Made by a program: the position numbers and the translations under genes. The notes beneath the pieces are model-generated. The model saw only the letters and a list, made by a program, of their open reading frames with translations, did not search any database and was not told where the DNA came from. Positions 17,558-64,000 of a stretch of DNA of 64,000 nucleotides are shown in pieces. The stretch comes from Lucinisca nassula (lineage: Eukaryota > Mollusca > Bivalvia > Lucinida > Lucinidae), in contig OY757023.1 in NCBI GenBank assembly GCA_963580285.1, positions 125,954,027-126,018,026 of the forward strand, given 5' to 3'. Position 1 is the first letter of the stretch. Each line of letters starts with the position of its first letter.

Positions 17558-17580
17558 NNNNNNNNNNNNNNNNNNNNNNN
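17558..17580. other. Assembly gap, 23 N
   Basis: The gap begins at the end of the terminal repeat, where an assembler would be expected to fail between identical LTRs. Confidence 0.98.
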
Positions 17581-30155: not shown

Positions 30156-30591
30156 GCCTGCCCCGGGGCCCACTGGTTTTTCATAGGCTTGTATAGGGAC
30201 AACCTTCAAAATATTCTTGTCTGAAACCAGAAGGTCCAGGCCTTTGATATTTGATATGCAGCTTCATCTAAAGGGCCTCTATACCAAGATTGTTCAAATA
30301 ATAGCCCTGGGGCCAAAATGTCTCCGCCCGGAACCCACTGGTTTTACATAGGCTTATATTAAGAAAGCCTTTAAAAATCTCCTTGTCTGAAACCACAAGG
30401 CCCAGGTCTTCGATATTTGGTACAAAGCTGCATCCAGTGGCTCTACCAAGATTGTTCGAATTATAGAGTCCTGCCGCAAAAATTTGAACAATCTTGGTAG
30501 ATGTCTCTTGATGAAGCTTCAAACCAAATATCAAAGACCTTGGCCTTCTGGTTTAAGACAAGAAGATTTTGAAAGGTTTTCACTATAATAA
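30156..30591. repeat. Inverted copies of a CCCCGGGGCCCACTGG-type repeat
   Basis: Two minus-oriented units (GGCCCACTGGTTTT, CTTGTCTGAAACCAGAAGG, ATTTGATATGCAGCTTCATC) are followed from about 30481 by an oppositely oriented partial unit. The same repeat recurs in the other orientation at 33054-33410, so this 3-kb block is bracketed by inverted copies. Confidence 0.7.
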
Positions 30592-30905
30592 CTGGATCCT
30601 TTGGAAGCAAAGAATACACCAATAAACGAAAATAGCAGACTCGGTTTTATTGAGTCTGTTCATGACCAGTACTTAAATGTGCAACACCGACCATGCCCTC
30701 TAGCACCAACTTAAGCAGAACACTATTTTCAAAATGATTCTAAATGAACTCAATGATCCCAAAGGACCAGAAAATATAATCTGCACTATGATGGTGTACG
30801 AGGAGATTTTTTTCTGGCCGCCACACGGCACAACACTAGCTGCAGTGAAGATAAATAAGTTCTGAATAGTTGGATCATTTGGAAGCAAAACATACACCAA
30901 ACAAA
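30592..30905 (-). mobile_element. Retrozyme-related element, divergent core, 1.1 units
   Basis: GGATCCTTTGGAAGCAAAGA (from 30596) recurs as GGATCATTTGGAAGCAAAAC (from 30873), a period of 277 bp. Blocks CAATGATCCCAAAGGAC, AGAAAATATAATCTGCAC and AGCTGCAGTGAAG match the ribozyme-bearing units at 55008-57098. The segment that would hold the ribozyme is replaced, on the minus strand, by a hairpin CAGACTC...GAGTCTG with AATAAA in its loop. I find no hammerhead core here. A second fragment is at 32917-33053. Confidence 0.65.
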
Positions 30906-32510: not shown

Positions 32511-32685
32511 GACCGGGCTTCCTCAGACTTTCGAATGAGTCTTTAAACCGAGATCCCGTCTCCGTATGACCTTAGCTGTTGGTGAGACGTAAAACTCAAA
32601 AACTCACTCACTCACTCACTCACTCACTCACTCACCCACTCACTCACTCACTCACTCACTCACTCACTCACTCACTCACTCACTC
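32511..32685 (+). mobile_element. 5'-truncated SINE with (ACTC)n tail
   Basis: The body ends GACCTTAGCTGTTGGTGAGA followed by CGTAAAACTC and about 21 ACTC units (32597-32685). The flanks AGCTCTGGTGG (32500-32510) and AGATCTGATGG (32686-32696) are an 11-bp target duplication with two mismatches. It is nested in the pearl-like core. Confidence 0.75.
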
Positions 32686-32916
32686 AGATCTGATGGCCAT
32701 TTTGTTTAACGGGGTGAACAATTTTAGCAATTTTGGTAAAGGGTCACTCAAGGTACATTCGTGTGAACTTATTTCAAAATCCTTTCACCGGTTAAGGAGA
32801 TGTCATTTGAAGAAAATGTTGACGACGCACGACACACAAAGGACGACGAACGCCGGACACAGGTCGATCACAATAGCTCACAATGAGCACCTTGTGCTCA
32901 GGTGAGCTAATAAAGG

Positions 32917-33053
32917 AAAATAGCAGACTCGGTTATTGAGCTTATTCATTTATGACCAGTACTGAAATGCACAAAACCGATCACGCCCTCTAACACCGGA
33001 TTATGCAGAACCCTATTTTCAAAATGATTCTAAATGAACTCAATGATCCCAGA
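32917..33053 (-). mobile_element. Fragment of the divergent retrozyme-related element
   Basis: Matches 30625-30760 over most of its length, including AAAATAGCAGACTCGGTT, TGACCAGTACT and AATGAACTCAATGATCCCA, then stops. It lies directly after the CTAA end of the pearl-like element. Confidence 0.6.
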
Positions 33054-33563
33054 TTAAGCGGGGCCGCGGGTCGGGCCCTTTTAGGCCTCAGAGCTATTTT
33101 TAGAACAATCTTCGTAGAGGTCCTCTAGATGAAGCTTCATACCCAATTTCAAAGACCTTGGATTTCTGGCTTCAGACAAGACGTTTTTTTTTTTTCAGGT
33201 TTTCCCTATATAAGCCTATGTAAAACCAGTGGGCCCCGGGGCGGGGCCATTTTGGCCCGGGGGCTATAATTTGAACAATATTGGTATAGATCCTCTAGAT
33301 GAAGCTTCATACCAAGGTCCTCTTGATGAAGCTTCATACCAAATATAAAAGACCCGGGCTTTCTGGTTTCAGACAAGAAGAGTTTTAAAAGTTTTGTTTG
33401 CTGGTTTTGCTTGGATCCCAAATTTTTGAACTACTTTCAGTATGTACCTCCCAAGCATCATTCTGGTGAAGTTTGGTTTAAATTGGCACAGTGGTTAGGA
33501 GGAGATGTCAATGCTGACGGACGACGGACTAAGGACGGACGCCTGAGCACTTGCCTGTCCATT
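33054..33563. repeat. Second copy of the GGGGCGGGGCC repeat and a broken pearl-like end
   Basis: 33054-33410 holds units with AGATGAAGCTTCATACC and TTTCTGGTTTCAGACAAGA, the opposite orientation to 30156-30480. 33440-33560 carries GGAGGAGATGTCAATG and GACGGACGACGG, as near the end of a pearl-like element. The matching CTCAGGTGAGCTA lies beyond the MITE, at 33849-33861. Confidence 0.6.
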
Positions 33564-33836
33564 ACGAAAACATGCCTATACGACTACATTGTAACCTTTA
33601 TCTCCGAAAAAATGAAAATTTTAAGATGAACAATTGTGATATTTTTCTTATTTCTGCTTTACAATATAGATTGTAGGTAGTCGTTAGAACCGCCTCATCG
33701 AGGTGGTTCTTACTAGTACCCACAATCTATATTGTAGAGCAGAAATAAGACAAAATAGGTTTACCCCTGCAAACCCCAGTCTTACGAAATAAAAGTGGGA
33801 TTCAAGGGAGTCAAAATTATGTAGGCGTGTTTTCGT
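33564..33836. mobile_element. Foldback MITE, family B copy 3
   Basis: The cleanest copy: ACGAAAACATGCCTATA at the left, GTAGGCGTGTTTTCGT at the right, and a central palindrome with arms of about 32 bp (ATATAGATTG...AGAACCGCCTC facing GAGGTGGTTCT...CAATCTATAT). It interrupts the terminal region of a pearl-like element. Confidence 0.8.
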
Positions 33837-46900: not shown

Positions 46901-49900
46901 AGACAAAACTTTTTCTCTATCTTCCCAGCAGAATACAAAAATGATGTTTTTCTCAATATCTCAGCTAATAAATGCGATAGGAAGGCGCGGTAAACGGCGT
47001 TCTTCATCATTTTTATAGCGACTAAGTATAGAGAGAAAAAATCCGAAATTCGGAGACAAAAATTTTTCTCTATCTTCCCAGCAGAATACAAAAATGATGT
47101 TTTTCTCAATATCTCAGCTAATAAATGCGATAGGAAGGCGCGGTAAACGGCGTTCTTCATCATTTTTATAGCGACTAAGTATAGAGAGAAAAAATCCGAA
47201 ATTCCGAGACAAAAATTTTTCTCGGTCTTCCCAGCAGAAGAAAAAAATGATGTTTTTCTCAATATCTCAGCTAATAAATGCGATAGGAAGGTGCGGTAAA
47301 CGGCGTTCTTCATCATTTTTATAGCGACTAAGTATAGAGAGAAAAAATCCGAAATTCGGAGACAAAAATTTTTCTCTATCTTCCCAGCAGAATACAAAAA
47401 TGATGTTTTTCTCAATATCTCAGCTAATAAATGCGATAGGAAGGCGCGGTAAACGGCGTTCTTCATCATTTTTATAGCGACTAAGTATAGAGAGAAAAAA
47501 TCCGAAATTCCGAGACAAACATTTTTCTCGGTCTTCCCAGCAGAAGAAAAAAATGATGTTTTTCTCAATATCTCAGCTAATAAATGCGATAGGAAGGTGC
47601 GGTAAACGGCGTTCTTCATCATTTTTATAGCGACTAAGTATAGAGAGAAAAAATCCGAAATTCGGAGACAAAAATTTTTCTCTATCTTCCCAGCAGAATA
47701 CAAAAATGATGTTTTTCTCAATATCTCAGCTAATAAATGCGATAGGAAGGCGCGGTAAACGGCGTTCTTCATCATTTTTATAGCGACTAAGTATAGAGAG
47801 AAAAAATCCGAAATTCCGAGACAAAAATTTTTCTCGGTCTTCCCAGCAGAAGAAAAAAATGATGTTTTTCTCAATATCTCAGCTAATAAATGCGATAGGA
47901 AGGCGCGGTAAACGGCGTTCTTCATCATTTTTATAGCGACTAAGTATAGAGAGAAAAAATCCGAAATTCGGAGACAAAAATTTTTCTCTATCTTCCCAGC
48001 AGAATACAAAAATGATGTTTTTCTCAATATCTCAGCTAATAAATGCGATAGGAAGGCGCGGTAAACGACGTTCTTCATCATTTTTATAGCGACTAAGTAT
48101 AGAGAGAAAAAATCCGAAATTCGGAGACAAAACTTTTTCTCTATCTTCCCAGCAGAATACAAAAATGATGTTTTTCTCAATATCTCAGCTAATAAATGCG
48201 ATAGGAAGGCGCGGTAAACGGCGTTCTTCATCATTTTTATAGCGACTAAGTATAGAGAGAAAAAATCCGAAATTCCGAGACAAAATTTTTTCTCTATCTT
48301 CCCAGCAGAATACAAAAATGATGTTTTTCTCAATATCTCAGCTAATAAATGCGATAGGAAGGCGCGGTAAACGGCGTTCTTCATCATTTTTTTAGCGACT
48401 AAGTATAGAGAGAAAAAATCCGAAATTCGGAGACAAAAATTTTTCTCTATCTTCCCAGCAGAATACAAAAATGATGTTTTTCTCAAGATCTCAGCTAATA
48501 AATGCGATAGGAAGGCGCGGTAAACGACGTTCTTCATCATTTTTATAGCGACTAAGTATAGAGAGAAAAAATCCGAAATTCGGAGACAAAAATTTTTCTC
48601 TATCTTCCCAGCAGAATACAAAAATGATGTTTTTCTCAATATCTCAGCTAATAAATGCGATAGGAAGGCGCGGTAAACGGCGTTCTTCATCATTTTTATA
48701 GCGACTAAGTATAGAGAGAAAAAATCCGAAATTCCGAGACAAACATTTTTCTCGGTCTTCCCAGCAGAAGAAAAAAATGATGTTTTTCTCAATATCTCAG
48801 CTAATAAATGCGATAGGAAGGTGCGGTAAACGGCGTTCTTCATCATTTTTATAGCGACTAAGTATAGAGAGAAAAAATCCGAAATTCGGAGACAAAAATT
48901 TTTCTCTATCTTCCCAGCAGAATACAAAAATGATGTTTTTCTCAATATCTCAGCTAATAAATGCGATAGGAAGGCGCGGTAAACGGCGTTCTTCATCATT
49001 TTTATAGCGACTAAGTATAGAGAGAAAAAATCCGAAATTCCGAGACAAAAATTTTTCTCGGTCTTCCCAGCAGAAGAAAAAAATGATGTTTTTCTCAATA
49101 TCTCAGCTAATAAATGCGATAGGAAGGCGCGGTAAACGGCGTTCTTCATCATTTTTATAGCGACTAAGTATAGAGAGAAAAAATCCGAAATTCGGAGACA
49201 AAAATTTTTCTCTATCTTCCCAGCAGAATACAAAAATGATGTTTTTCTCAATATCTCAGCTAATAAATGCGATAGGAAGGCGCGGTAAACGACGTTCTTC
49301 ATCATTTTTATAGCGACTAAGTATAGAGAGAAAAAATCCGAAATTCGGAGACAAAACTTTTTCTCTATCTTCCCAGCAGAATACAAAAATGATGTTTTTC
49401 TCAATATCTCAGCTAATAAATGCGATAGGAAGGCGCGGTAAACGGCGTTCTTCATCATTTTTATAGCGACTAAGTATAGAGAGAAAAAATCCGAAATTCC
49501 GAGACAAAAATTTTTCTCTATCTTCCCAGCAGAATACAAAAATGATGTTTTTCTCAATATCTCAGCTAATAAATGCGATAGGAAGGCGCGGTAAACGGCG
49601 TTCTTCATCATTTTTATAGCGACTAAGTATAGAGAGAAAAAATCCGAAATTCGGAGACAAAAATTTTTCTCTATCTTCCCAGCAGAATACAAAAATGATG
49701 TTTTTCTCAATATCTCAGCTAATAAATGCGATAGGAAGGCGCGGTAAACGGCGTTCTTCATCATTTTTATAGCGACTAAGTATAGAGAGAAAAAATCCGA
49801 AATTCGGAGACAAAAATTTTTCTCTATCTTCCAAGCAGAATACAAAAATGATGTTTTTCTCAATATCTCAGCTAATAAATGCGATAGGAAGGCGCGGTAA

Positions 49901-50130
49901 ACGGCGTTCTTCATCATTTTTATAGCGACTAAGTATAGAGAGAAAAAATCCGAAATTCGGAGACAAAAATTTTTCTCTTCTGCGATAGCAGAATACAAAA
50001 ATGATGTTTTTCTCAATATCTCAGCTAATAAATGCGATAGGAAGGCGCGGTAAAACGGCGTTCTTCATCATTTTTATAGCGACTAAGTATAGAGTGAAAA
50101 ATCCGAAATTCCGAGACAAAAATTTTTCTC
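37957..50130 (-). repeat. 153-bp satellite array, right, ~80 units, minus orientation
   Basis: Same unit as the left array, inverted. A 12-unit higher-order repeat is visible: the rare GAGTGAAAAA variant occurs at 43207 and 45043, exactly 1836 bp (12 x 153) apart. Two private variants, CATTTTTTTA (41501 and 48385) and AAGATCTCAG (41601 and 48485), recur together 6884 bp apart, showing a ~45-unit duplicated block. Since 153 is divisible by 3, frames of 2561 (38762-46447) and 1201 codons (46411-50016) stay open as 51-residue repeats. The array ends in an N gap, so its true length is unknown. Confidence 0.97.
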
Positions 50131-50330
50131 NNNNNNNNNNNNNNNNNNNNNNNNNNNNNNNNNNNNNNNNNNNNNNNNNNNNNNNNNNNNNNNNNNNNNN
50201 NNNNNNNNNNNNNNNNNNNNNNNNNNNNNNNNNNNNNNNNNNNNNNNNNNNNNNNNNNNNNNNNNNNNNNNNNNNNNNNNNNNNNNNNNNNNNNNNNNNN
50301 NNNNNNNNNNNNNNNNNNNNNNNNNNNNNN
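50131..50330. other. Assembly gap, 200 N
   Basis: The gap follows directly on the satellite array and probably stands for unassembled satellite; a 200-N run is usually a placeholder length. Confidence 0.98.
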
Positions 50331-50472: not shown

Positions 50473-50605
50473 AAGGTAAAATAGAAGTGTAGCCAATGAT
50501 CAGGAATCGATACAATTAGCCCACATATGCAGCTCCCATCAGAGACACCAAAGGGAAAGAAGCACAAATATGAAACAACAGACCCTAATGGAAACATCAA
50601 TTAAG
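50473..50605 (-). mobile_element. 3'-end fragment of the retroelement at 59938-61060
   Basis: Aligns with 59937-60060: GATCAGGAATCGATACAATT, GACACCAAAGGGAAAGAA and AATGGAAAC in the same order and strand. It is non-coding 3' sequence only. Confidence 0.7.
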
Positions 50606-50607
50606 TA

Positions 50608-50890
50608 CCTCGGGATGACGTCACTTCCCGTAGCAACCAAACGGCCGCCATACTTCGAGGTGAAACTGTTTGCCTAACAACCGGTAATATTCAATTACAT
50701 ACTATCGTTTTTTTAGCTTGGATGTATCTTTCAAGTTTGTTATTGCAAAATTTACCGTTATGCTTATTGAATTATTTTAACTGTTGTTAGTAATTATAAA
50801 AAAAATAAATAAATAAAACAAAAAATAAAAAAAATGATGAAAAAAAAAAAAATGATAATTTCAGCGACGAAAGTGAACGTCATCCCGAGG
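50608..50890. mobile_element. 283-bp MITE with TA target duplication
   Basis: The left terminus CCTCGGGATGACGTCACTT and the right terminus (inverted) CCTCGGGATGACGTTCACTT match apart from one inserted base. TA flanks both sides (50606-50607 and 50891-50892), as in Tc1/mariner-derived MITEs. Partial copies at 63355-63467 and 63468-63620 lie at the far side of the LINE. Confidence 0.85.
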
Positions 50891-51075
50891 TATGCTGTCG
50901 GTATTCTGTCTGTCTGTGTTTCTTAGTGTTCCACCGCTTCTTTAATCGGTGCACCCTCTTGGAGGTATAAGTTTAACGATAGAGAGCTCAAATCTATTGT
51001 GGTGCTTTTATTTACAGGTGTGTGGCTTAACTTATTTATTTACACTGTATTTAAAATACTGTCTTTTCTGGATAG

Positions 51076-51785
51076 TCAGGTAGTGGACGCCCGCTTAAGG
51101 GCAACGATACGTCTCCTGTGTATTTTGGATAAGTACTCCCTTGTATACAGTTCCAGCAACCCCAGCCTCTCGTCCCCCAAATCGTTGGTATTAAGGAGCA
51201 CAGACGCATCCAATGTAATTTGAGTCAAGAATTCTGGGTCACTGAGCTGTGATGTCTGATAATCTGTAATAACATGGCTTGCTGACAACCTGTCTCTGTA
51301 AGCTTTCCTCTCGGCTGATAAGAATTCACATTCACTAATAAAGTGCTGCCTGGTTTCAGGAGCAACTGCACACAGTTTACAGTTAGGATTAACCGCGTGC
51401 TGATTAAAGGCAGCTCGATTTGCTTGAAGGATGTACGTACCCGTCAATAACTTACACTTAATTTGTGCCCGTCTATTATCATGAACATTATCCCTAACAG
51501 TTGACCAAATATGGTGGCACTTGCCAATTTTCAGAACATTTGGGTTAAGATATTTAGTAGAGGTTTTATTTGCAATATCGGACTTCCAGAAGGACTCCAC
51601 ACTTTCATGTATTCTTTGGTTAAGTGAACGTTTCCATTCTGCTTTGGAAGGGGGATTGCTGATCAAATGAAATATTGATGGCAGCTCATACTGTTCAAGA
51701 ATACTTTGAATATGAGTAAACATACTCTTTTGAGGCTTTTCTCTCATAATTAATTGCCTTTTTGCTATTTCTAGCTCGACTGAAT
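51076..51785 (-). pseudogene. LINE ORF2, C-terminal segment with CCHC zinc knuckle
   Basis: About 236 codons of LINE sequence, preceded in the same frame by a few codons of transposon DNA. The knuckle reads C-x2-C-x8-H-x4-C (CKLC...RQH...C), about two thirds along, as in the region after the RT domain of many non-LTR elements. The frame is open to its natural stop at 51076. AATAAA motifs lie in the following 150 bp on the minus strand. Its function in a live element would be nucleic-acid binding during target-primed reverse transcription; here it is cut from the RT domain and presumably dead. Confidence 0.75.
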
Positions 51786-51787
51786 TT

Positions 51788-52112
51788 GCCCAGCAGGCAC
51801 TCAACGTTGAATCAACGTTGAGTTTGTGTTGAAATTAGGTTGATTGGTTGATCAACCTTATATCAACCTCTGTTCAACGGTGATTTATCAACACTGATTA
51901 AACGTTGGCAGTATAACGTTGAATCAAAATTGATATGTTGTTGTATATAAACAACTGATTCAGCAAAGTTGAACTTAAGTTGGTAAAACTCTGCTGATTA
52001 AACGTTGATGTCCTTATTATTTAATCAACGTTGAAATTTGGCTGACAACCAACATTTGGTTATTACGACATAATAAACAACAACAACAGCAACGATATTA
52101 TTATTATTATTG

Positions 52113-52158
<46 letters not shown>

Positions 52159-52268
52159 AAAACAACACTCGCAAATATGAAAGAGCACATCACGTCGAGT
52201 CAACGTCGTATCAACGTCGTCGCATCGACGTTGATGCGACGTTACCTAAACGTCATGTGCCCACTGGG
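51788..52268. mobile_element. Possible 480-bp MITE with CCCAG(C/T)GGGCA ends
   Basis: CCCAGCAGGCA at the left and TGCCCACTGGG at the right, with CAACGTTGA iterons on the left half and AACGTCG iterons on the right half. A (TTA)n(TTG)n(CTG)n trinucleotide tract lies at 52091-52156. No target duplication could be matched. Confidence 0.5.
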
Positions 52269-53384
52269 ATAAAAATCCAGAAGGCGCGCAGGTGCGGCAA
52301 ACGATCAGGGTCTACGCTGTTTGCTTGTCAAATACCAATTATATATGGATCTGATCAGTTTGTAAGTTTTGAATGAACTTTCCCACGAAGCTCGCAGAAA
52401 CAAAACAATGGCGGCGCTGAACAGAAAAAGGTATTTAGAGTTTTATGCTAACGTACGTCGCTGGCATAGCCAGTGTTCGGCTTATCCTGCGTCTAAACGA
52501 GATGGTTCTTATAAAAAAATGCAGGCTTTGTTAGATCTTATTTTCATATCTTTTGATCCTTTGGTCGTGACGTGACGCGCCGGGAAAATCATATGCTCAC
52601 AGAGCGTGTAAGTTTTTTCGTGAACTTGAGACAGAGAGGGAAAAAACAACAGAAAAAAGAATTCATTGTGTGAGGTAAGATTTATTATTATCATTATTAC
52701 TGCATACATTTTCATAATAGCATGTGTTATTACACACAATACAATGGAAACGAAGAAACTTTTGATTCATAAATTTTGTTCTCTTTCAAATGCGCATTAC
52801 AAGCGCATGCACGCAGACGCGCAGTTATGAAAATACACCGCCAGAAACTGAAACGGGCTTCTCAACTTGCAGTTAATACAAAATATCATTTAAAAGTGAT
52901 TTTGTAATAGCTTTGTTCTTTATAAATTTTAAAATTAACTTTTTTTAAATGAAGAGAAACTTTTCATTTTTCCAGTTAACTTTTAAATCGAACGAAACGA
53001 AGTGCAATGATGAATATATAATTGGCCAGTCAAAGGAAAATATATAAATTAAAAAGCCCGGTAAAATGCACGATTCTATTTCTATTACTTAACAGTAAAA
53101 TCAAGCTTCTGGGCCATGTAATGCTTAGTTTAAGTCACTGGGAACCTTTTTAGAAAATATGTGATTTTCAGCCAACTACTTAAAAAATTTTATTATGCTC
53201 TGGCTTTACTCCTTTGTGTATACATAACTGTGCTTATCAGTTTTTCCACATTATAGGCGTGTAATATTAGAGCGTCTGGTGTTTATGATTCCCAGCTTAT
53301 GCCACAAGGTTTATGCCTTTTTTACGATAACTCACCCGTGCGACATGGTGCATTTTTTCACATCTCAAAAATGGCTTCTTTTCT
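52269..53384. other. Unassigned sequence inside the large insertion
   Basis: No recognised gene. 52290-52325 shares the GATCAGGGTCTACGCTGTTT motif with the short palindromic repeats at 1520 and 63893. A 68-codon plus frame (52369-52575) and a 76-codon minus frame (52509-52739) overlap each other and match nothing I know. Confidence 0.4.
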
Positions 53385-53600
53385 GATGAAAATTTGTGAT
53401 ATTTTTGTTACTTTTACTTCAAACATATGTTGTGGGTGCCCGTAAGAACTGCCTCATTGAGGCGGTTCTAACAAGTACCCATAACCTATGTTTTGAAGCA
53501 GAAATGTAGGAATAAGAAAAATGATATATACCCCCGTAAACCCGAGTTTTCTCGATATAAAGTGGGGTTTAGGAGGTGTTAATTTCACGGACGAGTGCAC
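53385..53600. mobile_element. Foldback MITE, family B copy 4
   Basis: Contains CAAACATATGTTGTGGGTGC, facing CTGCCTCATTGAGGCGGTTC, and CATAACCTATGTTTTGAAGC, then AACCCGAGTTTTCTCGATAT as in other copies. The ends are worn. Confidence 0.65.
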
Positions 53601-53623
53601 GTGATGGATTATACGGCCCTTTC

Positions 53624-53826
53624 AAGATTATTTCACTGATATCGAGCCGATCGTTAATCATAGGTGGGCGAAAACCGGCGTAACCGAAGAAAAAAATTGC
53701 CTAACCTTCCCTTGCAGAACTTGGTGTCTCACGTGTGACCCGAGCCAGGCTCGAACAACAGCGGTGAGGGATCTAATGATTAAGAGCCAGCGCCCTTATC
53801 CACTAGGCCAAGGAGGCCCATATGTT
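53624..53826 (-). mobile_element. tRNA-derived SINE (family C), minus copy
   Basis: The reverse strand aligns end to end with 34872-35090, including the head GGCCTCCTTGGCCTAGTGGA and a B-box region (GTTCGAGCC), though the internal tRNA part is mutated. Ends AAAGGGCCGTATAATCC in sense orientation. Confidence 0.75.
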
Positions 53827-54065
53827 TTATGCCTGTACATGGTTAGTTTGGACGATTCCGTTCCCTATTATATGTTACTGTTATTATACATGTATTTTTA
53901 TGCAAATAGTGTAAGATGCCCTGGGTGTACGTAGTGCGTGGGTCTACACTATTTACCCAAATCTCATCCATTGTACCCTATATAGGCATTATAATGTGCA
54001 AATGTAATCCAACAGGGTTTAGAATAAAAATGCATATTTAAACGTTTGTTACAAGACATGTGCGG

Positions 54066-54370
54066 CCCCCGCCAATTGGGGCTGACAGAAATAAATGGGC
54101 TGCATGATGCTTCAACGCAGAGCTGAAACCGACCGCACATGAGTACTGGTGAACCGCTCAGAGAATCTAAGCCTGCCCAGGTAAAGCGGTGCGAGTTGGA
54201 CTGTCCGTGCTTATAAACCCTATTGGTTTCATTAGGCGACAGGGCTTGAGATGTCATATTTCATCTCCATGTCGGGAAAAAGTCCCACAAAATTGGAAGC
54301 AACGACTCCAAAATGACCTATATATATATATATACAGTGTTGACGGGGACGTTAAACCTCAAATAAAACA
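54066..54370 (+). mobile_element. Family A retroposon, nearly full length
   Basis: Head GGCCCCCGCCAATTGGGGC to tail CCTCAAATAAAACAAAACTA. An internal (TA)n expansion at about 54320-54335 replaces ACCTTTAC of the other copies. Confidence 0.75.
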
Positions 54371-54445
54371 AAACTAAAATCATAACACTTTATCTAGAAA
54401 AAAAACTTTAATAGTGAAATAAACAGAAGCATAGGCCTACCCCTG

Positions 54446-54450
<5 letters not shown>

Positions 54451-54479
<29 letters not shown>

Positions 54480-54540
54480 TTCTTATTTCTTCTCAAAACA
54501 TAGGTCGTGGGTACCCGTTAGAAGGCGGTTCCAACAAGCA
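54451..54540. repeat. (ATT)n tract and fragment of foldback MITE B
   Basis: About 10 ATT units are followed by CAAAACATAGGTCGTGGGTA and GAAGGCGGTTC, the centre of family B. Nothing is recognised from 54541 to 54752. Confidence 0.6.
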
Positions 54541-54752
54541 ACAACAAGCTACGGGTACGTATGCATGGAACATGCTAGACGTTAATTTCATTTAGTAAGA
54601 AAAGGTTACTCAGGAAAAGCCACAATCAAAGACCACAGCCACCACAAGCCACCAAAATAACAGTTAGAAATGATGAGACGACACGTCACATACACAATCG
54701 AAATGTGCGTGCACCAACAGTGCAAAACCAGAAGCTGCAACGGAATCATTAC

Positions 54753-55007
54753 GACAACATGCCTATGTAATGCAGGACAATATTTTATGTATCCAGAGAT
54801 GATAATTGGTGATTTGTTCTTATTTCTGCTCCAAACATAGATTGAAGATGCTCGTTAGAGCAGGTTCTAACGCGTACCCACAAGTAATAATAATAATAAT
54901 AATCGACCTCTCGATCTCAAACCCGATGCTTTACCACTGCACCCAGCGCATTTATGTTTTAGAGCAGAAATAAGTAAAATAATGTAAACCCCACCTTTCT
55001 CTATATA
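54753..55007. mobile_element. Foldback MITE, family B copy 5, with SINE fragment
   Basis: It starts ACGACAACATGCCTATG and runs through the hairpin to ACCCCACCTTTCTCTATATA. At about 54884-54950 it is broken by an (AAT)n tract plus a minus-strand tRNA-like head (TGGGTGCAGTGGTAAAGC, A-box-like). The MITE stops at the start of the retrozyme array; TGTTTAGAAGGGTAATC after 57098 may be its continuation. Confidence 0.65.
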
Positions 55008-55086
55008 AATATGTTCTATAAAAGGGTTATCCTTTGGAAGCAAGGAATACACCACAGAAGTGATAAATATGGAGTGTACATGTTTT

Positions 55087-55138
55087 CTGGGCCAGACTAG
55101 CTAGTTTCGGCCAATTAGGCCTCATCAGTGACCCTCAG
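55087..55138 (-). ncRNA. Type I hammerhead ribozyme, unit 1
   Basis: Minus strand, 5' to 3': stem I strand GGGTCA, core CTGATGA, stem II GGCC-TAATT-GGCC, core GAAA, palindromic stem III ACTAGCTAGT sharing its first A and last T with the core, cleavage triplet GTC, stem I strand TGGCCC. Stem I pairs over six positions (one G-U). Predicted cleavage is between plus positions 55095 and 55094. Stem III is too short for a stable hairpin loop, so a dimeric (double) hammerhead is likely, as in other retrozymes. Confidence 0.88.
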
Positions 55139-55348
55139 ATATTTTTTAAAATTCCACAATGGAATCAATGATCCCAAAGGACAAGAAAATATAATCTACA
55201 CTATGATGTAGGGTAGGGAGACGTTTTACCGCCGCCACACATTCCCACACATCAGCTGTAGTGAAGTTAAATATGTTCTATAAAAGGGTTATCCTTTGGA
55301 AGCAAGGAATACACCACAGAAGTGAAAAATATGGAGTGTACATGTTTT

Positions 55349-55400
55349 CTGGGCCAGACTAGCTAGTTTCGGCCAATTAGGCCTCATCAGTGACCCTCAG
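55349..55400 (-). ncRNA. Type I hammerhead ribozyme, unit 2
   Basis: All core and stem bases are identical to unit 1; 262 bp downstream of it in plus coordinates. Confidence 0.88.
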
Positions 55401-55610
55401 ATATTTTTTAAAATTCCACAATGGAATCAATGATCCCAAAGGACAAGAAAATATAATCTACACTATGATGTAGGGTAGGGAGACGTTTTACCGCCGCAAC
55501 ACATTCCCACACATCAGCTGTAGTGAAGTTAAATATGTTCTATAAAAGGGTTATCCTTTGGAAGCAAGGAATACACCACAGAAGTGAAAAATATGGAGTG
55601 TACATGTTTT

Positions 55611-55662
55611 CTGGGCCAGACTAGCTAGTTTCGGCCAATTAGGCCTCATCAGTGACCCTCAG
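55611..55662 (-). ncRNA. Type I hammerhead ribozyme, unit 3
   Basis: Core and stems identical to unit 1; spacing 262 bp. Confidence 0.88.
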
Positions 55663-55873
55663 ATATTTTTTAAAATTCCACAATGGAATCAATGATCCCA
55701 AAGGACAAGAAAATATAATCTACACTATGATGTAGGGCAGGGAGACGTTTTACCGCCGCCACACATTCCCACACATCAGCTGTAGTAAAGGTTAAATATG
55801 TTCTATAAAAGGGTTATCCTTTGGAAGCAAGGAATACACCACAGAAGTGAAAAATATGGAGTGTACATGTTTT

Positions 55874-55925
55874 CTGGGCCAGACTAGCTAGTTTCGGCCA
55901 ATTAGGCCTCATCAGTGACCCTCAG
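55874..55925 (-). ncRNA. Type I hammerhead ribozyme, unit 4
   Basis: Core and stems identical to unit 1; spacing 263 bp. Confidence 0.88.
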
Positions 55926-56135
55926 ATATTTTTTAAAATTCCACAATGGAATCAATGATCCCAAAGGACAAGAAAATATAATCTACACTATGATGTAGGG
56001 TAGGGAGACGTTTTACCGCCGCCACACATTCCCACACATCAGCTGTAGTGAAGTTAAATATGTTCTATAAAAGGGTTATCCTTTGGAAGCAAGGAATACA
56101 CCACAGAAGTGAAAAATATGGAGTGTACATGTTTT

Positions 56136-56187
56136 CTGGGCCAGACTAGCTAGTTTCGGCCAATTAGGCCTCATCAGTGACCCTCAG
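56136..56187 (-). ncRNA. Type I hammerhead ribozyme, unit 5
   Basis: Core and stems identical to unit 1; spacing 262 bp. Confidence 0.88.
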
Positions 56188-56398
56188 ATATTTTTTAAAA
56201 TTCCACAATGGAATCAATGATCCCAAAGGACAAGAAAATATAATCTACACTATGATGTAGGGCAGGGAGACGTTTTACCGCCGCCACACATTCCCACACA
56301 TCAGCTGTAGTAAAGGTTAAATATGTTCTATAAAAGGGTTATCCTTTGGAAGCAAGGAATACACCACAGAAGTGAAAAATATGGAGTGTACATGTTTT

Positions 56399-56450
56399 CT
56401 GGGCCAGACTAGCTAGTTTCGGCCAATTAGGCCTCATCAGTGACCCTCAG
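56399..56450 (-). ncRNA. Type I hammerhead ribozyme, unit 6
   Basis: Core and stems identical to unit 1; spacing 263 bp. Confidence 0.88.
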
Positions 56451-56660
56451 ATATTTTTTAAAATTCCACAATGGAATCAATGATCCCAAAGGACAAGAAA
56501 ATATAATCTACACTATGATGTAGGGTAGGGAGACGTTTTACCGCCGCCACACATTCCCACACATCAGCTGTAGTGAAGTTAAATATGTTCTATAAAAGGG
56601 TTATCCTTTGGAAGCAAGGAATACACCACAGAAGTGAAAAATATGGAGTGTACATGTTTT

Positions 56661-56712
56661 CTGGGCCAGACTAGCTAGTTTCGGCCAATTAGGCCTCATC
56701 AGTGACCCTCAG
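56661..56712 (-). ncRNA. Type I hammerhead ribozyme, unit 7
   Basis: Core and stems identical to unit 1; a one-T insertion lies just outside it. Confidence 0.88.
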
Positions 56713-56923
56713 ATATTTTTTTAAAATTCCACAATGGAATCAATGATCCCAAAGGACAAGAAAATATAATCTACACTATGATGTAGGGCAGGGAGACGTT
56801 TTACCGCCGCCACACATTACCACACATCAGCTGTAGTGAAGTTAAATATGTTCTATAAAAGGGTTATCCTTTGGAAGCAAGGAATACACCACAGAAGTGA
56901 AAAATATGGAGTGTACATGTTTT

Positions 56924-56975
56924 CTGGGCCAGACTAGCTAGTTTCGGCCAATTAGGCCTCATCAGTGACCCTCAG
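56924..56975 (-). ncRNA. Type I hammerhead ribozyme, unit 8
   Basis: Core and stems identical to unit 1, although this edge unit is the most diverged outside the ribozyme (shortened T run, AATGTTCCCAAAAGAC). Confidence 0.88.
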
Positions 56976-57239
56976 ATATTTTCAAAATTCCACAATGGAA
57001 TCAATGTTCCCAAAAGACAAGAAAATATAATCTACACTATGATGTAGGGCAGGGAGACGTTTTACCGCCGCCACACATTCCCACACATCAGCTGTAGTAG
57101 TGTTTAGAAGGGTAATCATTGCATGGACTTGTTAACATGATGTGACCGCCAGTAGTTAAACTACTGATTGGGTTTCAAATCCGGAGTTTACGAAATTGTC
57201 ACCATCGCCCCCAATTCCGATGCAGTGTCATACATAATG

Positions 57240-58775
57240 GCAATAACAGTATATTCAGCATTCATGGTCAGGTGGTATAGACGCAGCAAAGCGTATGGCT
57301 TTAACAAACACTACCTGCATGCAGCCACATTTATTTAGCTAGTTTGTTCATAAGCATATTTATCTTTCTCTCCTCTAATAAATAATGACTTCTTTAATGA
57401 ATGAAATTTTGAAGATGAAGGAACAGGTTTCAGAGAGGGATATGGTAGGTAATCAGAGAGATATTTATAGGTCTAGAGTGAATTAGAGTGAACATTTGGA
57501 CTGATTCCAGTCTACCACGATAAGTAAAACGGAAAAAAAATGTTTGGTCATTGTAAGGTTACTTAACTCAGATTTTTAGTTCAATCCTATTTTTGGTTAT
57601 GGCATTTTCAAGATTAAACGTTATTTTCCGCATGTTTTCGTGTAAAATTGAGGATCCAGTGTAAATTGTTCATAAATAAGAACTTATCCTGATGTGCGAT
57701 TTAAATTACAAATTCATAATTAAAACTCTTGCTGCATATATATTTATATTATCGGTCGATCCTCAAACCAGGTGGCTTACAACATAGAAAACGATCCTCA
57801 TACCTAGCAGTTATGGTGAGGTGGTATCGATACTGCAAAGCATACAACACTTATGATTTCACTATTTAAGTAGCACATAAAGTAAGGAATTAAACACAAT
57901 AAATATCTAATTCAGAAATTAAACTTCTCGATGCTCATGTTTTTTTTTTTTCAATTTTCGATCGATCCTCATACCAGTCTGTTGAGGAGAGGTGGCTTTT
58001 TAGAAAACGATCCGCATGCCTTGCATTCATGGTGAGGTGGTATCGATACTTCAAAGAATACAACACTTACACATACATACCTTCGGTTTACAAGCATGAT
58101 TTCATTATTTACGAAATTAGCACATGAGGTAAGGCAATGCTTATTCAGAATTTAAACTTCTCTATGCGCATGTTTTTTTTTTTTTTTTTTTTTCAATTTT
58201 CGATCGATCCTCATACCAGTCTGTTGAGGAGAGGTGGCTTTTTAGAAAACGATCCTCATGCCTCGCATTCATGGTGAGGTGGTATCGATATTTCAAAGCA
58301 TACAGCACTTACACATACATATTTTCGGTTCACAAGCATGATTTCATTATTTACGTAATTAGCACATGAAGTAAGGAAACCCTAATTCAGAATGTAAACT
58401 TCTCTATGTTCATGTTTTTTTTTTCAATTTTCGATCGATCCTCGTACCAGTCTGTTGAGGAGAGGTGGCTTTTTAGAAAACGATCCTCATGCCCTGCATT
58501 CAAGGTGAGGTGGTATCGATACTTCAAAGCATACAACACTTACACATACATACTTTCGGTTTACAAGCATGGTTTCATTATTTACGTAATTAGCACATGA
58601 AGTACGGAAATACTAACTAAGAATTTAAACTTCTCTATGCTCTTGCTTTTTCCAATTTTCGATCGATCCTCACACCAGTCTGTCGAGGAGAGGTGGCTTT
58701 TTAGAAAACGATCCTAATGCGAGGTGGTATTGATACTTCAGAGCATACAGCACTGTCACATACATACTTTTCCAG
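57240..58775. repeat. Tandem repeat of ~230-243 bp, about 6 copies
   Basis: Units contain CGATCGATCCTCATACCAGT, GAGAGGTGGCTTTTTAGAAA, CATTCATGGTGAGGTGG, the palindrome GTATCGATAC, CATACAACACTTACACATAC and a poly-T run of variable length. CGATCGATCC recurs at 57958, 58201, 58432 and 58660; earlier copies (57262-57800) are degenerate. There is no ORF and no hammerhead core. Confidence 0.85.
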
Positions 58776-59344
58776 ACAACTTGAACGACAGCGGATCGCG
58801 GTCAAAGTTTACGCGAACCCCTTCGGGGTTCATTTAATTTGCATGCGACCCACTGCGTTCATATTTACATAAACAGCAGAAAGATAAAATGCATTTCTAA
58901 AGTGTACGGATTTTCTACACAATACACAATAATTCCTTCCAGAAACTAAACATGCATCTATAGGAGAAAATACATCTGTGGTGTAATTTGAAGAATTGCC
59001 TTTCTTGTTTTTCAGATTGTGTTATGAATAGGACCACCCTTGACCCCGTCAGAATTAAAAAAGAAAAGAAAAGAAATTATCGTCCGACTACTATTGACAG
59101 CTTACAGAACAGGCGGTAGCTAATGTCGAACAAAATAAAAACAAAAAAAAACACAGTGATCAGTTCTACAAACTTTAAGTACAACAGTGTTTGTGGCTCG
59201 TAATATCTTAAAAGAAAATTTAAGTGAAAAAGTGGGCGCCCTTGCATGCGTATGAAATATTTTCAGTTTGCAAATTTATATGTTAGTTTCGTTTCTTTAA
59301 TAAATCATGGTTTCTTAAACGCTGTTTCTGTAGTTATATCAGTT
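58776..59344. other. Unassigned sequence
   Basis: 58850-58905 (ATAAACAGCAGAAAGATAAA) resembles 6230-6270, so a dispersed repeat is present. No gene is seen. Confidence 0.4.
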
Positions 59345-59637
59345 TGATTTAATGGTTGATATTTCAACGTTGATGCAAGGCTGAAAATTAAGCTATGGTT
59401 CAAAGATGACTGCTCAACGTTGATTCAACTTTCATATTCAACCGAATATCAACGTTTATTCAACGTTGAATCAACACTGAAATATCAACGTTGATTCACT
59501 GTTGGATTGTCAACTTTGAGTCAACGTTGACTGTGCAACGTTGATTCAAATTTCATATTCAACCCAAAATCAACGTTTATTCAACGTTTGCCTTCAACGT
59601 TGACTCAACGTTGAATCAACCGATTATTGCCCGCTGG
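59345..59637. repeat. GTTGA-iteron right end of the large insertion
   Basis: At least ten variants of TCAACGTTGATTCAAC in both orientations, closing with TTGCCCGCTGGG at the LINE junction. They match the iterons at 51796-52030. Confidence 0.8.
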
Positions 59638-59937
59638 GTGGGTTACTAATAATGCCAGCAAAGAGGTTAAGCAGGGTTTTGTGTAGCACAGCTTCCAGAG
59701 GCAAGATGTCAAGCATAGCCATACAGGCAGAGTTTGAGACATTGTCAGGTAGACCCTGAATTTGTTTCAGGCATTTTCTTTGAAAGCTTTCGAGAATCTC
59801 AATATCTCTCTTCTTAAGCAATTGAACATCGAGACCATACAGGAGTCTCGGAACAACGAAAGTCGACCATACGTGACCGTTCTGGGCAGCTTTCACCCCA
59901 TTGCCCCCATGGAACCCAGCCCCCATTAAGGAGTAAA
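59638..59937 (-). pseudogene. LINE ORF2, segment just after the RT domain
   Basis: One hundred open codons (VWSTFVVPRLLYGLDVQLLK and onward), the helical thumb/post-RT region seen in LINE proteins. It continues the RT piece at 61089-63354 and is continued by 51076-51785. Bounded by the second retroelement upstream and the iteron transposon downstream. Confidence 0.75.
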
Positions 59938-61088
59938 GTAGAAGTAAAACAAAGATCAGGAATTGATACAATTAACTTACTCCACCCATAAAAGACACCA
60001 AAGGGAAAGAAATACAAACATTAAGCGACCAGACCATAATGGAAACCTAAACAAAGGAAGGCCATAAGGACAGTTACTTTCCCACAAAATGGCCATATGG
60101 CCATCCAAAACCAAAAGACACAAGTGATACACACAGTAAGTAACAAACAACAACATAAATAAATCGCCACAGAAGAGCCGCCTTGGAACGGTCAGTGGAA
60201 GATTTCCACTGGGGGGCTTAAATCGATTTTACGTGGCCACAATCCTCGCCCTTACTTCCGTCGCGATTTAGACAAATAATTTGTTCAGTCCGCATGAAGG
60301 CCTCCTAACTCATCAGTGCAACATCTCCGTGAACACAAAAATCAAAGAACCACGGAGGTGAGACAACGGTGAGGACTCGACAGCAAGAAACCACAGAAAT
60401 GCTGGAGCAAAAGAAAACCAACAGTTAGACTCCGATGAGCCCAACCAGAGACAGAGCATCAGACACCAACCAACATTATCTCTCTAATTTTCGATAAGCC
60501 TTTACGTTGGAGCCGTCATAGAATCTGAGGCCTGACCCACCGGCGTGCAATTAAAGAGGGAAGCAAAGTTGCCAACCGTGAGTGGGTTAACTACCATGCA
60601 TGCAGTCTGTCGTATAATATCCATGTTGTACCCAATCTTTTTATATCGAAGAATGATTTTACGAAATTGGGTGCTGAAGTCATTGCAGTTGTGTATTTTT
60701 CTGAATTTATATACTAAGTCACCATAAAATTCGGGTTTCGATAGACCTTGTTGCAGAAGAGATTTAAGTCCAATATTGAATTTTGAAATTAAATCAGAAT
60801 GGCGTCTATAAAATTTTGAAAAGGCTTTGCGTAGTTTATGGTACCGATAACCCTGATTAAGGAGTTTAGCCGTTAATATTTTATTACGAGTGTTGAAGTC
60901 AGTAACATGACTACACACTCTAGCAAATCGAATTAATTGCGAAATATAAACGCCATAGGATGGCGCACGAGGAACATCACCATCCAAAAAAGGAAAATTT
61001 ACAATCTCAAAATCAAAGTCATCGCGTTTATCATAAATTTTGCACGAAACAGTCTTCCGACCCAAAGAGAAACAGTCTTCCGACCCAA
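59938..61088 (-). mobile_element. 5'-truncated retroelement inserted in the LINE, with duplicated 5' junction
   Basis: It carries a 3' UTR of about 560 bp and the C-terminal end of an RT-type ORF (60502-61053). Its 3' terminus (minus-strand CTTTGTTTTACTTCTACTTT) recurs at 50473 and 63969-64000. LINE bases TACTCTCTT and TACTCCTT at the two sides look like an imperfect target duplication. At 61040-61110 an 18-bp LINE motif (CTTTGGGTCGGAAGACTG on the minus strand) appears three times, which suggests template jumping at the 5' end of the insertion. Confidence 0.7.
60502..61053 (-). pseudogene. C-terminal part of a retroelement reverse transcriptase ORF
   Basis: About 180 open codons. From CKIYDKRDDFDFEIVNFPFL through YGVYISQLIRFARVCSHVTD and KLRKAFSKFYRRH, it resembles the conserved post-catalytic region of an RT family frequent in cnidarian and bivalve genomes. 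The layout recalls the region after the palm in Penelope-like RTs, but I see no GIY-YIG endonuclease and cannot fix the clade. The catalytic motifs lie upstream and are lost by truncation; the apparent ATG is in LINE-derived filler. It ends at a normal stop. Confidence 0.6.
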
Positions 61089-63354
61089 AGAGAGTAAGCA
61101 GTCTTCCGACCCAAAGAGATTCTTCCTGTTATATCAGCACTTCCGGACGTATTCCTAACAATGCCTAGATGTGTGGCGGAATCTGTCACATCAACCCTAT
61201 TCCCTGAGAGAAAAATATCCATTTCGAGAACTTGCCTTTTCTTATAACTGTACCATAATAGATGACTTTTTGTAGGATGGACACAATATCGTTCTCGGTT
61301 TGCACTGTGTTCTACATCCCATACCATCACTTGCATGTCTGTCTGACACTGTGCCAGAAGCGCCAAATCATCGGCAACAGTTATGTGCGGTATGCTGATG
61401 GATCCTATTATCATTCCTGGATACCTGTTCTCCAACTGCAACAGCAAGGGATTATTATATCTCTTGTAATGTCCCGTTGAGAGGACTCCACCCTGTCTGA
61501 CTCCTTGTCTGATGTTGATCGGCTCTGAGAACTCACCCGCCCATTTAACTCTTGAAGAGCAGTCCGAGTAAAGATCTTTCAATAATAGCCAGTCGTTGCC
61601 CTGGACTCCATCCAAGTACAGCTTCCGAAGGAGTGAATTGTGATCCACAACATCAAACGCCTTCTGTGTGTCTAAAGTTGTAAGGAACAGATCCTGTTTA
61701 CAGTTAGCTGCTTCCAAAATGCACTCAGAAAGAATCAATGCTGCATTTACTGAAGAACTTCCAGAAGTAAAACCTTTCTGCAACTTGGACTGTGAATCTT
61801 GGAATATAGCAGTATGTCTACTATTAAGGATATGTTCAAGTATCTTCAGTAGTACTGGCGTAACTGTTATACCTCTATAGTTGCCTGGGTTGGAGGGGTC
61901 TCCTTTCTTATAGATAGGTGTCAGGATTCCTTCCTTCAGAACAGCAGATATGGTTCCAGAATCAACGAGGTAATTCAGCAAACTGGTGAGAAAGTCTGTT
62001 ACTTCAAGGCTAGCCAGCTTATAGTGTTCACTGGTGAGTCCCATAATATCCACAGCTTTGTTATTATTTAGCCGTTTCATGGCTGTACGTACTTCACTTT
62101 CCGTGATGGGGGCGATAGGAGAGTTCTCTTTCCTACACATGGACTCAATGCACTCCACGTCAGCATCCACCATCTGTTTATACTGGTTGTCAAAGCTCGG
62201 ATTATCCAGGGGTGTGGCCAGGGTTTGAAAGTGGGTAGCCCATCCTTGTCTTATCTCCTCTGGTGTTTCCCTATCAACATCATTGACTGTCAAGGACAGC
62301 AGTTGTGGGTTTGAGCTCTTTCGTTGTTGTCTGATCAGCTTATAGAACACCCTTGAGTCGTTCTCGGCGGCCATGATCTCCTCGGTCTTCTCTCTCCGTA
62401 TCCTGGCTGCTTCCTGCCTCTGTTCTTTCCTCAGGTCTTTCTTTGCAAGCTTCATCTTCTGAACCGATTCACTCAAAGGGTCTCTAGGGGAACCAGATTT
62501 CTGCCACTCCCACCAGGCTAGACGGGAAGCCTTAACCGCTTGGTATATTCTGGTTGACCATGGTCTGGCTCTAAATTCCTTTGCCGTAATCTCCGGTTTG
62601 AATTTCGGAATACTGTCAAGAGTTGCCTGCTTTAACACTGCACATAGGTGGCTCAGAGGTTGTAGGATGTCAAAGGTGCTAGTCAAAGTTGGTACGAAGG
62701 TGTCAAAAGGAAGTAGAAGTCTTTGTACTGTGTCCTGGAACACATCAGTATTACACTTGTCCCATTTCGGTTTACATACAATTCTAACTGGATATTTCTG
62801 CACGTCCCCAACAGAGACACTGAGAGATCCCAAAACCGGAATATGATCTGAAGTGTTTGTTGAATTTCTATCCATCACACCAGCAGATGTCAAAATCTCA
62901 CTTCCAATGGCGTTACAGAGAATATAATCGATTTCAGCCCGATCTGACTTGTTAGGATGAAAGAACGTATTCCCACTTTCCTGTTTACACACTAGGGCAT
63001 TGAATTGGACAAATTCCTTCAAGAGAGTGTCTTGATTATTTCCCTTCCTTTGGGAGAGTGAAACATTCATATCTCCTAGAATGAAAAAAGCATGAGAGTT
63101 GCTGTATGTAGTTAGGATCTCTTCCAACTGGTCAAGAATGTGTAAATATTCCTCCGCATCTGTGGAAGCACTTTTTGAGTTCCTACTTGGCATGTACGCA
63201 CAGCACAGGCACAATGGTGGAGAAGTAAGCACTTCAATGGCCACAATCCTGTTCCCTCCCACAGGAAGCTTCTTCACTGTAATATCCAGGTTATTCCTGT
63301 AAAGAATGGTAACTCCGCCATAGCCACGGGGCTTCTGTGATGGGGGCAGAGGAT
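61089..63354 (-). pseudogene. LINE ORF2: endonuclease (partial) plus reverse transcriptase
   Basis: About 755 open codons of LINE sequence. With residue numbers from the ATG of the open frame (63382, which lies in the flanking MITE), an APE-type endonuclease C-terminal half has GDMN (about 103-106), IDYIL (about 151-155) and SDHIPVLG (about 178-185). The RT domain follows: NPGNYRGITV (about 498-507), motif A TLDTQKAFD (about 569-577), motif B RQGVRQGGVLS (about 625-635) and motif C VADDLALL (about 669-676). Motif C has V instead of the usual Y/F before ADD; both aspartates remain. The endonuclease N-terminus, including its first catalytic residues, is missing. The role in a live element is target nicking and reverse transcription; this copy is broken. 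The clade is not assigned. Confidence 0.85.
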
Positions 63355-63620
63355 TGTATCTTTCAAGTTTATTACTGTACAATTTACCGTTATACTAATT
63401 AAATTAGTTGTAAAAAAAATGATGAAAAATAATAATTTCAGCGGCTATAGTGAAGGTCATCCCGAGGTGCGCTATCGCTTTTTTAAAGCTTGAATGTAAC
63501 TTTCAAATTTGTTTTTTGTAAAATTTACCGTTATACTAATTAAAATAAGTATAAGTTAAATTAGTATAAGTTTGTAAGTGACTATGAAAAATGATAATTT
63601 AACGGCGAAAGTGAACAGGT
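63355..63620. mobile_element. Two partial copies of the CCTCGGGATGACGTC MITE
   Basis: 63355-63467 matches 50728-50890 and ends at GTCATCCCGAGG. 63468-63620 repeats the interior (CTATCGCTTTTTTAAAGCTT to GGCGAAAGTGAAC). The first copy lacks its left half, which the LINE 5' edge replaces. Confidence 0.7.
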
Positions 63621-63892
63621 GAAAGTCTCAGGTCTTGTGTATTCAGAAGTGACATGTCATCGGACAGAATAACCCAAGTGTCAAGGAAACTTGACATAGA
63701 TCTTGACAAGTAAATCAAATGCCTGGAACATATTTCCATGTTCATAACGCTTCGTTAATACTGATTGATAGTTGAATGTGAAAATTAATTATAAAAATGG
63801 CTTTTGGCTACATAATAATAAATGGATAGACTAGGCGATTGTGATTGTAACCATGTAATTACGTTAGGGTTCTCTTAAGTGTTTAAACAATT
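63621..63892. other. Unassigned AT-rich sequence
   Basis: Nothing recognisable as a gene or known repeat. Confidence 0.4.
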
Positions 63893-63968
63893 ACCCTGGC
63901 AAACAGTGCAGACCCAGATCAGACGCCACAGAACGCGGCGTCTGATCAGGGCCTCCACTGTTTGCATA
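63893..63968. repeat. Short palindromic repeat (CAAACAGTG...CACTGTTTG)
   Basis: CCCTGGCAAACAGTGCAGAC and the inverted GGGCCTCCACTGTTTGC enclose GATCAGACGCC facing GGCGTCTGATC. Related copies are at 1515-1578 and 52290-52325. Confidence 0.75.
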
Positions 63969-64000
63969 AAAAGTAGAAGTAAAACAAAGATCAGGAATTG
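63969..64000 (-). mobile_element. 3' terminus of another copy of the 59938-61088 retroelement
   Basis: AAAAGTAGAAGTAAAACAAA followed by GATCAGGAATTG equals 59939-59970 and continues past the window edge. Confidence 0.7.

Follow-up and report, generated by a model that had tools for sequence, protein, structure and literature searches.

A tandem array of eight units in the genome of the bivalve Lucinisca nassula carries the same type I hammerhead motif in every unit on the minus strand. It is most likely a metazoan retrozyme of the kind without long terminal repeats (non-LTR), and its RNA is predicted to self-cleave into pieces of 262/263 nt that would then close into circles. The array lies in a stretch of 64,000 nt (GenBank assembly GCA_963580285.1, contig OY757023.1, positions 125,954,027 to 126,018,026 of the forward strand), hereafter called the window, to which all positions below refer. 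Computational support for an intact ribozyme is good, and the motif has a palindromic helix III through which cleavage probably works between neighboring units.

Hammerhead motif and unit array

Tandem Repeats Finder placed the array at 55006-57098 with a period of 262, 8.0 copies and 98% matches, and spacings of 262/263 hold across all eight unit starts. This unit size falls inside the retrozyme range (~150-450 bp), and the GC content of 0.40 is below the retrozyme limit of 45-50%. No open reading frame (ORF) of at least 40 amino acids (aa) lies wholly within the array; two ORFs cross the edges of the array, one of 45 aa on the right and one of 62 aa on the left. The array and its units are as follows.

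55006..57098, minus strand: putative non-coding retrozyme array (8.0 units, each 262/263 bp long; GC content, 40%)
55007..55268, minus strand: unit 1, last in the sense transcript (3' end)
55269..55530, minus strand: unit 2
55531..55793, minus strand: unit 3, identical to unit 5
55794..56055, minus strand: unit 4, identical to unit 6
56056..56318, minus strand: unit 5
56319..56580, minus strand: unit 6
56581..56843, minus strand: unit 7
56844..57098, minus strand: unit 8, first in the sense transcript (5' end), the most diverged unit, without the last ~7 nt

A 54-nt motif occurs eight times on the minus strand, once per unit and without a single difference. Its core consists of CUGAUGA and GAAA, with the cut expected 3' of the C in GUC. 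Stem I (GGGUCA/UGGCCC) has 6 bp including one G-U, stem II has 4 bp and is closed by the loop UAAUU, and stem III has 3 bp, counting the basal A-U, with the loop AGCU. A descriptor requiring CUGANGA, stem II, GAA, stem III with the basal A-U, H17 and a stem I of at least 5 bp matched exactly the eight array sites on the minus strand and nothing else in the window. On Markov sequences with the dinucleotide composition of the window, the same descriptor gave three matches in 129.4 million strand-bases, or 0.003 per window. A sequence-only reading of this DNA had described eight intact type I hammerheads on the minus strand in tandem 262/263-bp units; the descriptor and the unit alignment confirm this, and the cleavage position which that reading expected (55095/55094) agrees with the placement of the motif.

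For comparison, hammerhead patterns were scanned in viral contigs, and at least 260 distinct paired-stem motifs were extracted among the matches listed. Sixty-six of these were selected and 60 aligned; this first alignment (A1) had stem III out of register and was discarded. The covariance model used here, R1, was built from 18 of the 60 viral-contig hammerheads, all of a single geometry, and contains no window sequence. Each of the eight window motifs scored 50.3 bits with R1 (E = 8e-14), compared to 9.6 bits for the next match in the window; with filters off, a search of 50500-64000 returned the same eight at E = 1.7e-14, followed by 7.9 bits. The predicted ribozymes, each found with both the descriptor and R1, are listed below.

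55089..55134, minus strand: type I hammerhead (50.3 bits), predicted cleavage after 55095
55351..55396, minus strand: type I hammerhead, predicted cleavage after 55357
55613..55658, minus strand: type I hammerhead, predicted cleavage after 55619
55876..55921, minus strand: type I hammerhead, predicted cleavage after 55882
56138..56183, minus strand: type I hammerhead, predicted cleavage after 56144
56401..56446, minus strand: type I hammerhead, predicted cleavage after 56407
56663..56708, minus strand: type I hammerhead, predicted cleavage after 56669
56926..56971, minus strand: type I hammerhead, predicted cleavage after 56932

The loops of the motif also carry a recognizable signature. Among the viral-contig motifs with a 4-bp stem II, a U-NNN-U loop and a stem I of exactly 6 bp, A flanks stem I on both sides in 130/130, and 118 of the 130 have a central A in the loop; the 58 other viral-contig motifs with a stem I of exactly 6 bp have mixed flanking bases. 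This count excludes motifs lying too close to the end of a contig. Limiting stem I to exactly 6 bp means that no seventh standard pair can be present, which alone does not require A on both sides. All three signature features are present in the window motif, with its loop UAAUU (middle A) and an A on each side of stem I. It is thus consistent with the canonical contacts between loop 1 and loop 2, with viral contigs rather than animal retrozymes as the yardstick.

Palindromic helix III and the predicted dimer

Stem III and its loop together read ACUAGCUAGU, a perfect 10-nt palindrome; helix III and loop are fully palindromic in only 3/260 viral-contig motifs. Folding with ViennaRNA, whose model does not extend to tertiary contacts, made ACUAGCUAGU unstable as a hairpin (+1.5 kcal/mol for the ten bases) and stable as a duplex with one extra base per side (-15.1 kcal/mol). 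Two copies of the 54-nt motif have precisely the double hammerhead as their minimum-energy fold, at -46.3 kcal/mol compared to 2 x -16.6 kcal/mol for the monomers. For the 46-nt motif, the gain on dimerization was -13.1 kcal/mol, compared to a viral-contig mean of -6.5 (standard deviation, 2.4), and helix III paired between molecules in 14 of the 260 viral-contig motifs. In 7/7 pairs of neighboring units, the minimum lay between -96.8 and -98.5 kcal/mol, with the dimeric hammerhead 0.4 kcal/mol above it and two monomeric hammerheads 15.1 kcal/mol above it. Because helix III and its loop are palindromic and the dimer fold is near the minimum, cleavage is predicted to work, probably, between neighboring units, and monomeric cleavage may also take place.

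We therefore propose that two neighboring units on one transcript would pair as a dimeric hammerhead with a common 10-bp helix III, and that both sites would be cut. A released unit would hold one motif with a weak helix III, leaving the circle comparatively safe from being cut again. By analogy with the literature, the circle would be closed by a host RNA ligase and reverse-transcribed by a borrowed reverse transcriptase into tandem complementary DNA, which would insert elsewhere. A dimer through helix III is itself an idea already known and not new: dimeric hammerheads are described in axolotl (PMC7229834), and a supplementary legend gives a 10-bp dimer stem for a hammerhead of Aedes (PMC3088659). 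The 2020 study of metazoan retrozymes, with bench work on three hosts, left open what stops the circles from cutting themselves (PMC7229834). For one more host, the array suggests an answer that can be tested, namely, that cutting occurs mainly as a neighbor pair.

Several results weigh against this reading, either in the identification of the element or in the proposed mechanism. Rfam at its gathering threshold found no match in the whole window. The R1 E value is flattering, as the training motifs were chosen by the core pattern and by a stem II geometry that they share with the window motif. A target-site duplication was not found, the longest exact word shared by the ~55 nt around each of the two ends being 6 nt. 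A dimer gain as large as that of the window motif also occurs in 6/260 viral-contig motifs. The predicted probability of helices I and II in a single motif falls from 0.65-0.79 in the bare 54 nt to 0.00 with a 30-nt flank and is ~0.05 with 60 or 100 nt of flank or in a one-unit circle, and single motifs may thus misfold. Forcing the hammerhead on a one-unit circle costs 4.0 kcal/mol; because this cost is so small, protection of the circle would not be certain. Finally, invertebrate hammerheads typically have a helix III of two pairs with a tetraloop, and the majority of them cut well in monomeric form (PMC7229834); without its basal A-U the window helix III has this size, which speaks against any need for a dimer.

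The Rfam result is best read as a matter of sensitivity. In permissive mode over 54900-57200, hammerhead lines below threshold appeared at all eight sites (17.6-20.3 bits; E = 0.63-4.7), along with an unrelated 22.8-bit line at the left edge of this interval. When nine of the 15 loci behind R1 served as controls, Rfam at gathering detected one of ten R1 member hammerheads, and Rfam was accordingly rejected as sole judge; a further viral-contig hammerhead motif scored 32.5, compared to a cut-off of 34. A covariance search with no hit above threshold, which the sequence-only reading had named as a refutation, is literally what was obtained; because the cut-off missed 9/10 control hammerheads, the ribozyme claim is not refuted by it. 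These controls suggest that many ordinary type I hammerheads escape detection at the cut-offs of the Rfam hammerhead models.

The absence of an Rfam match at gathering would also be expected of a chance hammerhead-like sequence without catalysis that was multiplied by tandem duplication, and the eight copies are indeed one ancestral motif and not eight independent finds. Such an origin is scarcely credible given that 0.003 matches are expected per window before the loop signature is even asked for, and that R1 separates the motif at 50.3 bits from a background of 9.6 bits.

Origin of the array and comparison with known elements

Variation among the units falls outside the ribozyme, as the sequence-only reading had noted: a hand count on the unit alignment, excluding the missing end of unit 8, gave 11 events outside the 54-nt motif and 0 inside it. 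With an even spread of events, the probability of this outcome is ~0.08, which is not significant, and the further suggestion of selection on the ribozyme is not supported. Its invariance may instead reflect a young array. Unit 3 has the same sequence as unit 5, and unit 4 the same as unit 6, junction included, and two linked variant types recur. Because units 3-4 equal units 5-6, a monomer circle copied once, with later mutations arising independently, fails to explain the array, and the earlier idea of one template copied repeatedly likewise finds no support: the identical units need a two-unit template or a later duplication. This pattern suggests that a two-unit block was duplicated to extend the array, or that a two-unit circle served as its template. 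Alternation of unit types was considered as proof of a dimer circle and dropped (26/70 arrangements alternate as much; not significant); the identical blocks hold independently of that test.

Identical blocks such as 3-4 and 5-6 could also come from unequal exchange, as in an ordinary satellite with a fossil hammerhead, that is, a former retrozyme now spread by unequal crossing-over and neither transcribed nor mobile. The unfound target-site duplication and the position of the most diverged unit, unit 8, at the edge fit such a satellite as well. We consider it unlikely, since eight intact ribozymes and the high identity of the units (97.7-99.6% to unit 2) indicate little decay, and the flanks hold no degraded continuation of the array. 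A continuation of this kind was looked for and rejected: the 262 nt on each side fit the unit no better than shuffles, which did equally well in 126/300 cases on the right and 159/300 on the left, and for the nearest 60 nt in 38/300 and 268/300, respectively. A missing target-site duplication is not disqualifying, as those of metazoan retrozymes are described with the words "when present" (PMC7229834). No promoter is known in retrozymes, according to PMC7761336.

The two array ends fall at almost identical positions within the unit. On the left, the end is 89 nt 3' of a cleavage site in the sense direction, and the array ends are therefore not cleavage sites. No LTRs were found; in a blastn comparison with the window, the border stretches 54800-55040 and 57080-57300 matched each other only through the unit, and the 206 nt to the left and 202 nt to the right of the array have no repeat in common. 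About 26 bp to the left lies a short element (54814-54979) with 22-nt inverted ends (86% complementary), pieces of which recur at 621-653, 757-839, 8703-8742, 33632-33757 and 54480-54548. Right beside the array on the other side, a 242-bp unit is repeated at 57901-58720 (~3.5 copies, 91-93% alike), and a diverged 54-nt piece of it is also present at 57258.

Among known elements, the array most resembles metazoan non-LTR retrozymes, which likewise consist of tandem non-coding units of a few hundred base pairs, with a GC content of <45%, many in a row and one type I hammerhead per unit (PMC7229834). Described units measure 220-240 bp in Acropora millepora, 350-390 bp in Mytilus galloprovincialis and 330/350 bp in axolotl (PMC7229834). 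Mytilus, the nearest host comparison, differs in its longer units and in hammerheads that are described as lacking most of the conserved loop-contact bases, unlike those of the array (PMC7229834). The array further differs from these retrozymes in belonging to a sequence family with no match in the collections searched. Its dimer-favoring 10-nt palindrome is a second point of difference, as the need for a dimer is stressed for amphibians rather than for invertebrates in PMC7229834.

A short helix III with a palindromic loop is also found in the hammerheads of newt and salamander satellites and of an Aedes aegypti repeat (PMC7229834, PMC3088659); the array has 3 bp in helix III, with the basal A-U, compared to one pair in HHR_Amex1 and two in HHR_Amex2, and the hosts differ (PMC7229834). 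In the cricket Dolichopoda, as in the array, the hammerhead belongs to satellite DNA, and a double hammerhead has been proposed. In that proposal, helix III is intramolecular, and helices I and II are formed by two molecules together, whereas the predicted array dimer shares helix III and stem I (PMC2837043). Plant LTR retrozymes are likewise hammerhead-bearing, non-autonomous and thought to move via circular RNA. Their hammerheads are of type III and stand in LTRs, usually one or two of them at a distance of 600-1000 bp, and the target duplications measure 4 bp (PMC7761336); this identity was rejected because the array hammerheads are type I and 262/263 bp apart.

Penelope-like and Terminon elements share with the array tandem type I hammerheads that may cut as dimers, and in them the hammerheads stand in terminal repeats (PMC7761336). 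That the array is part of such an element is nonetheless very unlikely. Their motifs, in autonomous elements, are described in PMC7761336 as minimal, without helix III or loop contacts, whereas the motif of the non-coding array has a short helix III and the loop signature. ORFs of at least 150 aa were listed in the window and three of them scanned with Pfam; the sole reverse-transcriptase ORF of the three has an endonuclease/exonuclease/phosphatase domain, broken Penelope pieces lying outside this search.

That ORF belongs to the type of long interspersed nuclear elements (LINEs). It lies ~4 kb to the right of the array, within 60502-63382 on the minus strand, encodes 783 aa with RVT_1 and Exo_endo_phos domains, and is overlapped by an ORF of 187 aa without a Pfam match. 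The proteins nearest to the reverse-transcriptase ORF (61031-63382) include one, at 94% identity over 64% of the ORF, that is named as a protein of a Candidatus Thiodiazotropha endolucinida metagenome-assembled genome (MAG). Most of the 95 matches to the ORF are unnamed, and those with names comprise 7 from Thiodiazotropha, 3 from Sedimenticola, 5 from Mytilus, 1 from Pinctada and 1 from a butterfly. Lucinid clams harbor Thiodiazotropha as symbionts in their gills, and a LINE of animal type found in such MAGs is likely to be host DNA in symbiont bins. The protein matches thus point to a lucinid bivalve as the likely host.

Searches beyond the window gave no exact pattern match to the array in a genome contig collection, no blastn match of the array in phages and no match of a unit-specific hammerhead pattern in viral contigs. 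A general hammerhead pattern matched one viral contig, and a scan for hammerheads with a short helix III found 11 viral stretches with one pattern match each. Among the open-access papers listed in literature searches, no title or abstract opening names a lucinid retrozyme or hammerhead-less sister units.

Hammerhead-less relatives in the window

The window also holds diverged relatives of the array in which the slot of the hammerhead is taken by other sequence; like the palindromic helix III, they do not figure in the sequence-only reading.

30587..30900, minus strand: diverged relative, one 278-bp unit and the first ~36 nt of a second, in array orientation, with other sequence in the hammerhead slot
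30623..30724, minus strand: replacement module in the hammerhead slot, ~102 nt, edges set by eye
32909..33051, minus strand: another copy of the replacement module (85% match to 30621-30761 across 145 nt), next to ~40 nt of backbone

In blastn, 30587-30900 matched the array units at 76-79% over 103-182 nt and at 96% over a further 26 nt, and it contains an internal 36-nt repeat (86%) 278 bp apart. In a global alignment with gaps excluded, 144 of 168 aligned backbone bases were identical to the array. The module at 30623-30724 gave no clear alignment with the hammerhead stretch, and there is no hammerhead in 30587-30900 or 32909-33051, the best model score in 30400-33400 being 9.3 bits and outside the module. 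Nor was a known RNA family or tRNA found in the module at curated cut-offs; one weak Rfam line overlaps it at 15.4 bits, compared to a cut-off of 60. The copies that bear the module are more diverged than the hammerhead array.

We read this arrangement as a backbone with a putatively exchangeable module. A ribozyme-less sister on the same backbone was unexpected, and such relatives allow a direct comparison of a unit with and without the ribozyme on one backbone. Tentatively, and with more doubt than confidence, we speculate that the unit represents a modular RNA replicon whose tip can be exchanged. Either a ribozyme would have been inserted into the slot of an older tandem element that had none, which made a retrozyme of it, or the other module would itself be a processing element of an undescribed kind. 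Helix III, being palindromic, would then act as a copy-number switch, with tandem precursors being cut and one-unit circles not. In unit phase, no more than ~14 nt separate the left ends of the 30587 copy and of the array; matching left ends would be expected from a fixed 3' start of reverse transcription, which from two loci is a hint only. A backbone fold conserved between the array and this relative was not borne out by a test of broken pairs. Seven pairs were broken, compared to 7.9 by random substitution at the same places (176/500 as low) and 10.4 with the places shuffled (41/500 as low), and the minimum-energy folds of the two backbones (62 and 51 pairs) had 13 pairs in common.

Around the relatives, a family of inverted and direct copies occupies 30192-30581 and 33100-33395. 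One stretch of it scores 43 bits with a microRNA-precursor model (cut-off, 144); this match, to MIR2630, is the best line obtained around the replacement module and lies in a neighboring inverted repeat. On a larger scale, two ~12-kb arrays of one 153-bp satellite, at 18105-30155 and 37957-50130 and in opposite orientation, form arms that enclose an ~8-kb spacer holding the hammerhead-less relatives. One left-arm unit is 96-97% identical to the minus strand of the right arm. The long repetitive ORFs in these satellite arrays (up to 2561 aa) exist because the period equals 51 codons. Runs of N stand at 17558-17580 (23 long) and 50131-50330 (200 long); the latter adjoins the right satellite arm, whose length may therefore be an assembly limit. 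At 35393-37930 lie 8.8 copies of a 287-bp repeat with inner repeats of 24 bp and 15 bp.

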